Made by a program: the position numbers and the translations under genes. A stretch of 64,000 nucleotides of DNA. Source: Teichococcus aestuarii. Its GTDB lineage: Bacteria > Pseudomonadota > Alphaproteobacteria > Acetobacterales > Acetobacteraceae. Positions 22,667 to 25,129 of the stretch are shown here, in pieces (position 1 is the first letter of the stretch; every line of letters starts with the position of its first letter). The DNA lies in contig NZ_PDOA01000001.1 of NCBI RefSeq assembly GCF_003116135.1, forward strand, positions 248,001-312,000. Reading direction: 5' to 3'. The notes below the pieces were generated by a model that did not search any database, was not told where the DNA came from, and was given only the letters and a program-made list of their open reading frames with translations.

Positions 22667-25129
22667 ATGCCCGTGGCATCAACCCTCACCTACAGCGTGT
22701 CCAACCAGTGGAGCGGCGGCTTCATCGGCAATCTTGCGGTGCAGGGCGGGGCAGGAGGGCTGAATGGCTGGACCATCGCCTTCGATGCCGGATTCGAGAT
22801 CACCAATCTCTGGGGCGCCGAGATCGTCAGCCATGTCGGCACCCGGTATGTGCTGCGCAGCCTGAGCTGGAACGCGGTGGTGCCGCCCGATGGCACCGTC
22901 AGCCTGGGCTTCCAGGCGGCCGGCAGCGCCGCCAGCCTGCCCCAGGGCCTGAGCCTGAACGGCATGCCCACGACGGGTGGCGACACGCCGCCCGCCCTCT
23001 CCATCACCGATGCCAGCGTGATGGAAGGCGGGGATGGCACGCGGGAGCTGGTCTTCACCGTGACGCTGGACCGCGCCGCCGCAACGGCGGTGACGGTGAA
23101 CTACGCCACCACCGATGGCACCGCGGCCGCCGGCGTGGACTACACCGCGCTGCAAGGGCAGCTGACCTTCGCTGCCGGCGAGACCAGTAGGACCATCCGG
23201 GTGAAGGTGCTGGGCGACACGGCGGTGGAGGCGGACGAGACGCTGCTGCTGCGCCTCTCCGCCCCCTCCGGCGCGACGCTGGCCGATGCCGAGGCCACCG
23301 GCACCATCCGCAACGACGACACCGCCCCGCCGCCGCCCCGCATCGCCATCGGCGACGCCAGCGTGGTGGAGGGCGACCCGGCCGGCACGGGCGGAGGCGG
23401 CGGGGCGGCCGGCGCCCTCAGCACGCGGGGCAACCAGATCGTCGACGCCGGCGGGCAGGCGGTGAAGCTGGCGGGGGTGAACTGGTTCGGCCTGGAATCG
23501 GCCAACCTGGCGCCGCACGGCCTCTGGGCGCGCGGCTACAAGGAGATGATGGACCAGATGAAGGCGGAGGGCTTCAACACCATCCGCCTGCCTTTCTCCT
23601 CCGAGCTGCTGCACAGCAACGCCGCGCCCAACGGCATCGACTTCTCGAAGAGCCCCGAGCTGCAGGGCCTCTCCGGCCTGCAGGTGATGGACCGCATCAT
23701 CGACTACGCCGGCCAGATTGGGCTGCGCATCATCCTCGACCACCACCGCAACAGCGCCGGCGCCGGCACCTCCGGCAACGGGCTGTGGTACGAGGCGGGC
23801 TATTCTGAGGCGCAGTGGATCGCCGACTGGTCGATGCTGGCGGCCCGCTATGCGGGCAAGCCGGCCGTGGTCGGCGCCGACCTGCACAACGAGCCCTACA
23901 ACGGCAACTGGGGCGGCGGCGGCGCCAATGACTGGGCGGCGGCGGCCGAGCGGGCGGGCAATGCCGTGCTCGCCGCCAATCCGGACTGGCTGATCATCGT
24001 CGAGGGCATCGGCACCTACCAGGGCAGCAACTACTGGTGGGGCGGCAACCTGATGGGCGCCCGGGACCGGCCGATCCAGCTCTCCGTGGCCGACAAGCTG
24101 GTCTATTCGGCGCATGACTACCCGAATTCCATCCATGCCCAGCCCTGGTTCCAGCAGCCCGGCTTCGAGGGCCAGCTGGCGGCCAAGTTCGACCAGATGT
24201 GGGGCTATCTCTACCGCGAGAACATCGCCCCCGTGCTGCTCGGCGAATTCGGCACCAAGCTGCAGGACCCGAAGGACCTGCTCTGGCTGGAGGCGATCAC
24301 CGGCTACCTCTCGGGCGACCTCGACCTGGATGGCGACCGCGACATCGCCGCCGGCCAGCAGGGTGCGAGCTGGACCTGGTGGTCCTGGAACCCGAATTCC
24401 GGCGATACGGGCGGCATCCTCGCCGATGACTGGCGCACGGTGATCGAGGCCAAGATGCAATGGCTCGAGCCGTTGCAGTTCGACCTTGGCGACCTGCCGG
24501 CCGGCGGGGAGACGGATGGCTGCGGCCGGACCATGCTCTTCACTGTCACGCTTTCCGCCCCGGCGGCGGAGGCGGTGCTGGTGGACTGGACCACGCAGCC
24601 CGGCACCGCGGGCCTGGCCGACTTCACCGCCGCCGCGGGCACGCTGCGCTTCGAGGCGGGGGAGACCAGCAGGACCATCGCCGTCGCCATCGCCGCCGAT
24701 GTGCTGCATGAGGCGGATGAGACTTTTTCGGTCGTCCTCTCCAACCCGCGCGGCGCCACGGCCGGCGACATGAGCGGCACCGGCACCATCCTGGATGACG
24801 ATGCGGTGGCGCCGCCACCCCCGCCGCCGGTCGAGGATGGCGGGCTGGAGGGCAGCGTCTCGGTGGTGAACGCCTGGGCCGGCGGCTTCCAGGCCAGCGT
24901 CGCGCTGACCAACGAGGGCAGCGGCGCGGTGCAGGGCTGGCAGTTGCGGATCGACACGCCCTACGAGATCACGCAGATCTGGAACGCCGAGATCGTCTCG
25001 CACGATGCCGCCGGCTACGTGATCCGCAACGCCGCCTGGAATGGCGGCATCGCCGAGGATGCCACGGTCAGCTTCGGCTTCCTGGGCCAGGGCGCCGGTG
25101 CCCTGGCCTCGCTCGACCTGGTGCTCTGA
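22667..25129 (+). CDS. GH5 endoglucanase with CBM2 and Calx-beta domains
   Basis: 820 aa. Domains in order: CBM2-like cellulose-binding (residues about 5-100, VSNQWSGGFIGNLAVQ, GWTIAFDAGFEITNLWGAEI), Calx-beta (about 110-222), a strand RIAIGDASVVEGD (225-237) that begins a second Calx-beta, a GH5 catalytic domain (about 250-610) resembling the actinobacterial E1 endoglucanase, with acid/base E409 in DLHNEPYN and nucleophile E527 in LGEFGT, then the rest of a Calx-beta from about 620 (TMLFTVTLSAP) to 722, and a C-terminal CBM2 (about 735-820). The GH5 thus appears nested in the second Calx-beta. No signal peptide: the first CBM begins at residue 6 or so, suggesting type I or other leaderless export. 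The near E1-like catalytic core suggests transfer. Confidence 0.92.
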   Translation: MPVASTLTYSVSNQWSGGFIGNLAVQGGAGGLNGWTIAFDAGFEITNLWGAEIVSHVGTRYVLRSLSWNAVVPPDGTVSLGFQAAGSAASLPQGLSLNGMPTTGGDTPPALSITDASVMEGGDGTRELVFTVTLDRAAATAVTVNYATTDGTAAAGVDYTALQGQLTFAAGETSRTIRVKVLGDTAVEADETLLLRLSAPSGATLADAEATGTIRNDDTAPPPPRIAIGDASVVEGDPAGTGGGGGAAGALSTRGNQIVDAGGQAVKLAGVNWFGLESANLAPHGLWARGYKEMMDQMKAEGFNTIRLPFSSELLHSNAAPNGIDFSKSPELQGLSGLQVMDRIIDYAGQIGLRIILDHHRNSAGAGTSGNGLWYEAGYSEAQWIADWSMLAARYAGKPAVVGADLHNEPYNGNWGGGGANDWAAAAERAGNAVLAANPDWLIIVEGIGTYQGSNYWWGGNLMGARDRPIQLSVADKLVYSAHDYPNSIHAQPWFQQPGFEGQLAAKFDQMWGYLYRENIAPVLLGEFGTKLQDPKDLLWLEAITGYLSGDLDLDGDRDIAAGQQGASWTWWSWNPNSGDTGGILADDWRTVIEAKMQWLEPLQFDLGDLPAGGETDGCGRTMLFTVTLSAPAAEAVLVDWTTQPGTAGLADFTAAAGTLRFEAGETSRTIAVAIAADVLHEADETFSVVLSNPRGATAGDMSGTGTILDDDAVAPPPPPPVEDGGLEGSVSVVNAWAGGFQASVALTNEGSGAVQGWQLRIDTPYEITQIWNAEIVSHDAAGYVIRNAAWNGGIAEDATVSFGFLGQGAGALASLDLVL

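Follow-up and report, generated by a model that had tools for sequence, protein, structure and literature searches.

We analysed a 64,000-nucleotide stretch of the Teichococcus aestuarii genome (the window, whose positions are used throughout) and describe one gene in it, an open frame on the forward strand (22667..25129) that encodes 820 amino acids plus a stop; all features below lie on this + strand. Three genomes of the same genus hold a match across nearly the full length of the protein (85, 74 and 60% identity), with no inner stops. From the N terminus, the protein consists of a CBM2, a complete Calx-beta unit, strand A of a second Calx-beta unit, a GH5 catalytic domain, strands B-G of that second unit, and another CBM2. 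No Sec-type signal is evident by eye in the 820-residue protein, and among the 10 neighbouring genes scanned we found no functional link.

The CBM2 that the initial annotation had placed at each end is recovered as two stretches of Pfam CBM_2 (111.6 bits over both; cut-off 24). The N-terminal one (about residues 5-103; 22679..22975) also matches PDB 6f7e (residues 7-92) and 1exg (residues 13-103), and the C-terminal one (residues 732-814; 24860..25108) is the best Pfam stretch. The GH5 domain (residues 251-605; 23417..24481) scores 167.6 bits against the Pfam Cellulase profile (cut-off 23.5), carries the catalytic glutamates E409 and E527 at the positions first proposed for them, and matches the structures 8fc0 and 1ece. 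Calx-beta (PF03160) reaches 122.7 bits for the whole protein in two stretches, above its cut-off of 27.

The split Calx-beta unit

We built a Calx-beta HMM from 244 complete units of related proteins. Its positions 1-110 cover residues 109-218 with 151 bits, and unit 1 (residues 109-219; 22991..23323) is therefore complete, as the initial annotation had it. The second unit is found in two pieces on either side of the enzyme: HMM positions 1-15 fall on residues 224-238, a match that is weak alone (1.1 bits, E 2.5), and positions 12-111 fall on residues 615-713. The first piece is strand A/A' (residues 225-238, including E235; 23339..23380), and the second is strands B-G (residues 621-713; 24527..24805), which share 53% identity (49/93) with the same strands of unit 1. 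The strand-B motif TMLFTVTL is indeed present after GH5, as claimed earlier, but starts at residue 622 rather than 623. Scored separately, unit 2 reaches 101-106 bits; with the two flanks joined in silico, the score rises from 106.4 to 120.8 bits and the match widens from HMM 19-111 to HMM 1-111. Two linkers bound the enzyme, a Gly-rich one after strand A (residues 239-250; 23381..23416), gappy and variable across 48 nested sequences, and a second one, likewise variable, before strand B (residues 606-620; 24482..24526).

The reading of segment 225-237 as the opening strand of the second unit is further borne out by a 14-column strand-A score, which is 33.1 in this protein; 3780 shuffled flanks reach 2.9 at the 99th percentile, 7.5 at the 99.9th and 17.7 at most. 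Joining the flanks gains a mean of 5.9 bits in 72 proteins, against -0.0 in 720 shuffled flanks and -0.2 in 720 flanks from non-nested enzymes. This joined-flank test is weaker than the motif test, perhaps owing to stray linker residues left by the cut: the gain tops all 20 controls in just 47 of the 72 proteins, and is zero or negative in some.

Even for unit 1, which is complete, the Pfam match enters the profile only at position 16. In each of ten proteins, the best PF03160 stretch starts at profile position 16-24, including in units outside the split. Strand A thus tends to fall outside the Pfam hit, which may be why the nesting has been overlooked so far.

We predicted the fold of residues 222-714 (493 residues) with AlphaFold2 from 48 alignment rows, all of them nested proteins: the window protein (representing L001), 46 more of the 59 non-plasmid representatives that pass the strand-A score, and L002. 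No ordinary Calx-beta unit, which would have dictated the outcome, is among the rows. The best of five models has a mean pLDDT of 88.4 and a pTM of 0.77, with a pLDDT of 91 over the first ten residues and values below 50 at model residues 19-27 and 387-398, the linkers on either side of GH5. It gives the composite unit 2 a full predicted strand set A-G, with strands at model residues 4-7 and 10-13 followed by those from 401-408 to 482-488. When the same rows are cut after GH5 (388 residues), the first two ten-residue blocks fall to pLDDT 47 and 34 and both strands are gone, while the GH5 elements are retained (pTM 0.89). Strand A is therefore ordered in the prediction only with B-G present, as the structural check proposed in the initial annotation anticipated, and from this contrast between model summaries we deduce that strand A would pair with B-G.

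In section 4.2 of a recent survey (PMC13114784), a nested (A1-B-A2) insertion is one in which a stretch of 30 or more residues containing a second domain interrupts the first, with both parts joining the host fold. Here the split is of ~380 residues and holds GH5, and the truncation control points to a joint host fold. A Foldseek search of the PDB was uninformative on the composite unit, since only glycoside hydrolase barrels appear among the 50 matches listed. In a viral library we met GH5 proteins along with some short matches of Calx-like type; judged by name or length, none of them extends across the insertion.

Recurrence among related GH5 enzymes

We took the best 80 of at least 591 relatives from a scan of one genome per species and added 7 plasmid loci and whole-genome searches, for a total of 198 loci with 189 GH5 frames. 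Clustering at 90% identity left 125 representatives, and 123 once two with runs of N were set aside. At a strand-A score threshold of 5, strand A precedes and B-G follow GH5 in 64 of the 123, neither is found in 51, and strand A alone is found in none (Fisher's p 1.7e-26, kinship ignored). B-G are present with a strand-A score below 5 in 8; by eye, L095, L117 and L138 show the motif lengthened by one residue, with its Glu retained, and L009, L036, L152, L153 and L165 have weaker variants without it. These proportions vary with the source of the loci: the scan, made with an alignment of nested proteins and so favouring nested rows, gave 49 nested and 3 not, the whole-genome searches 17 and 49, and the plasmids 6 and 1.

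The profile search for the same nested order suggested in the initial annotation thus shows that the layout recurs in three phyla: it is common among E1/CelE2-like GH5 enzymes and no peculiarity of the window protein. The named loci comprise, in Alphaproteobacteria, Acetobacteraceae, Roseomonadaceae, Reyranella, Xanthobacteraceae, Methylobacteriaceae and Chelatococcaceae, and further Mycobacterium and Mycolicibacterium (Mycobacteriaceae) and Planctomycetota; Azospirillum, Microvirga and Roseibium have plasmid-borne ones. Enzymes of this family are sparse: genomes with any GH5 of this kind, counted at E 1e-40, number 7 of 385 drawn evenly from the window's class, 33 of 249 from its family, 28 of 246 from the mycobacterial class (mostly without Calx-beta) and 5 of 246 from the planctomycete phylum, where the sole nested one is the genome used to choose that phylum. 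A contig labelled Bifidobacterium breve (L055, a metagenome bin) has enzyme flanks that resemble mycobacterial ones, and the bin may be mislabelled.

Among the frames up to L198, 107 of the 108 Calx-beta units (redundant copies counted) without an adjacent strand A but with one at a greater distance upstream are nested around GH5. The sole candidate for another guest is likely spurious, its upstream motif being part of a complete unit. Viral contigs gave no match in a first scan with a single protein and 9 loci in an alignment-based scan, of which, with B-G judged by HMM and strand A by eye, one (L203) has both parts and the other 8 neither. L203, on an IMG/VR contig, has its GH5 at residues 173-500 and a nearly complete Calx-beta unit before the nested part; this viral-classed contig could carry the flank of a provirus.

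Several individual loci differ in their surroundings. Falsiroseomonas stagni (L087, 987-3494 and 3560-6019) and Roseomonas ponticola (L095, 3569-6088 and 6153-8612) each have two adjoining nested genes on the same strand, and in both pairs the strand A of the first gene has an extra residue and a low score. On a Roseibium aggregatum plasmid (L032), a nested GH5 is part of an annotated CDS roughly 3,275 codons long (62122-71949), adjoined by the relaxase gene traI on the opposite strand. The T. aestuarii genome itself holds a second GH5 of the same family (L026; G000:C63:200799-201857) at 61% identity, which lacks a Calx-beta match on either side and has C-terminal repeats of another kind; two sister species (G005 and G009) also hold both kinds (L002 with L027, and L003 with L028). 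In seven loci (L005, L025, L111, L134, L139, L140 and L142), a Calx-beta unit lies a short way ahead of GH5 and none follows it, both split halves missing together. In L197, outside the representatives, strand A is present and the frame ends inside GH5.

Origin of the layout and rival readings

The composite unit fills an ordinary slot in the chain of CBM and Calx-beta modules. Strand A follows the end of the preceding unit by a median of 4 residues (n=43), as do complete tandem units (n=57). The composite B-G halves have their best match in the composite half of another protein in 60 of 71 cases and in a tandem unit elsewhere in 11; in none of 56 is the best match a tandem unit of their own protein. 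This resemblance among composite halves suggests a single origin with joint inheritance.

On a quick GH5 tree, in which L116 (with runs of N) was entered as lacking Calx-beta, the nested label takes 11 changes, 4 of them forced by starred branches, against a mean of 40.5 when shuffled. The independent contrasts (10 on the best tree, 3 on the starred branches) are too few for significance; in the three, strand A tracks B-G in 2.5 on average, opposes it in 0 and shows no difference in 0.5. Mycobacterial and alphaproteobacterial rows share a starred branch, a grouping suggestive of transfer across phyla. A single origin of the layout is probable, with inheritance alongside its GH5 and, later, joint loss of both halves in places and spread between phyla.

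We conclude that, very probably, a GH5 TIM barrel of about 355 residues is inserted in the A-B loop of a Calx-beta beta-sandwich of ~110 residues, whose two parts are predicted to fold as one unit. The initial annotation had already read the enzyme as dropped into this loop, and the HMM split, the truncation control and the co-occurrence in 64 of 123 representatives all uphold it.

A deletion could have produced the same order, if in an ancestor GH5 was surrounded by several Calx-beta units and the central part was lost, so that the beginning of one unit and the tail of a different one remained. Such a deletion competes with insertion as a history, and with the nested fold only if the pieces fail to pack. 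Repeats invite deletions, and tandem Calx-beta arrays are plentiful in these proteins. We nevertheless consider this origin unlikely: the composite halves mostly resemble one another and not the tandem units of their own protein, and none of the 72 representatives with a Calx-beta unit after GH5 has the arrangement expected of such an ancestor, in which that unit would be complete with a strand A of its own (own-A scores at or below -5.7), a result that also answers the refuting case named in the initial annotation, homologs with two independent Calx-beta domains.

It is far less probable still that the modules stand in line, with a separate Calx-beta after GH5 that dispenses with strand A and a leftover or look-alike linker before the enzyme. 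The Azospirillum genome paper gives the plain order GH_5 - CalX-beta in its available text (PMC3245306), PF03160 barely demands strand A, its match starting so late in unit 1 too, the strand-A piece scores so little by itself, and strand A is weak in 8 of 72 proteins. Yet a leftover ought to decay, and instead the motif is above threshold in 64 of the 72, never occurs without B-G in the 123 representatives, keeps its Glu in nearly every aligned row, and is ordered by AlphaFold2 solely with B-G present. About as improbable is a strand swap, of which Ig-like strands are capable, with strand A joining an adjacent Calx-beta unit or a second molecule: the segment modelled without neighbouring units already gives strand A its high pLDDT, lost on cutting B-G, and an Azospirillum protein without a complete upstream Calx-beta unit (L033) keeps strand A with a score of 28.7.

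With GH5 nested in the composite unit, strand A comes before the enzyme and B-G after it, and the two parts would join as a single Calx-beta unit. Both ends of the enzyme may well be anchored at a single point of the rod, from which it would project as a side arm. Neighbouring modules could quite plausibly stay linked via the host domain, such that pull or flexing of the chain would bypass the barrel.

The conserved acids raise a more speculative possibility. The position of E235 is Glu in 46 of the 48 rows, a count biased upward by the choice of rows from proteins with a good strand-A score. After GH5, D652 is conserved in 47 rows, D678 in 43, E682 and E685 in 44 each, and the final triplet D710-D712 in 34-37. 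Acids of this kind bind calcium in NCX1. A PDB search with the joined flanks gave one weak alignment, to the second domain of 3rb5 (19.9 bits), that sets E235, within SVVEGD, on the Glu of SVFEIT; most of the other NCX alignments printed start after strand A. Calcium bound by acids of both flanks might close the split unit as a clasp, but we hold this to be rather doubtful. In that tentative scheme, drawn from residue conservation, calcium in the habitat would set whether GH5 stands as a rigid side arm of a cellulose-binding rod or hangs loose, and an enzyme family in three phyla would have gained calcium-controlled positioning by one ancient insertion. One relative (L050) has RTX repeats, a hint of export by a type I system to a calcium-rich environment in which Calx-beta would fold.

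Comparison with known systems

The nearest solved relative is CelE2 (PDB 8fc0), a metagenome-derived GH5 endoglucanase (phmmer E 2.7e-168; Foldseek TM 0.97-0.98 on the target). The letters from its residue 2 onward, SISDASATEPGSGG, spell out a strand A resembling the one in the nested mycobacterial protein L081, and the deposited chain stops after GH5, leaving strand A orphaned and the composite unit absent. For its eight chains the structure library lists 346-364 residues, compared with 381 in the sequence, which suggests that 17-35 residues are unmodelled. Endocellulase E1 of Acidothermus cellulolyticus (1ece), a member of subfamily GH5_1, has the same catalytic domain family (E 2.4e-116), and the match to its solved chain is limited to the catalytic domain. 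We also take 8fc0 to be the structure of Pimentel et al. 2023. The title of that paper, the part of it given in the citing text (PMC12120621), names GH5 and Calx-beta domains.

In the available part of the Azospirillum genome paper (PMC3245306), the combination of GH_5 and CalX-beta is called unique. The plasmid loci of A. brasilense, A. lipoferum, A. thermophilum and Azospirillum sp. B510, probably among the proteins meant there, likewise have strand A before and B-G after GH5, strand A being below threshold in sp. B510 (L036). Unlike the window protein, they have no complete Calx-beta unit upstream, and the one scanned for its binding module (L033) has CBM60 instead of CBM2.

For cellulases described as GH5 then Calx-beta, the true unit would be one domain inside another. 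Constructs cut between the two, as the CelE2 fragment apparently is, would leave one strand attached to the enzyme and its Calx-beta partner incomplete, and such cuts could affect reported stability and calcium effects.

Our literature search, which mostly covered journals outside subscription, found no paper on a glycoside hydrolase inside a Calx-beta domain. Domain insertion as a kind and the pairing of GH5 with Calx-beta are known already. One parallel is a 2026 paper on a GH26 mannanase with an inserted CBM, which, from the part of the text available (PMC13357471), is likewise a carbohydrate enzyme with one domain interrupting another; there a small beta-sandwich is the guest in an enzyme, whereas in the window protein the enzyme is the guest in a beta-sandwich one third its size. 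The 2026 survey of domain insertions reports, in its accessible sections (PMC13114784), that a guest is as a rule the smaller partner (median 115 residues, compared with 199 for hosts) and apparently counts TIM barrels among the preferred hosts; in the window protein, by contrast, the TIM barrel is the guest and is three times larger than its host, the reverse of the usual size relation. The nested protein would also offer a ready-made natural scheme by which a beta-sandwich loop can present an enzyme, and as far as the searchable literature goes, the pair of guest and host, the direction of the nesting and its breadth are new.
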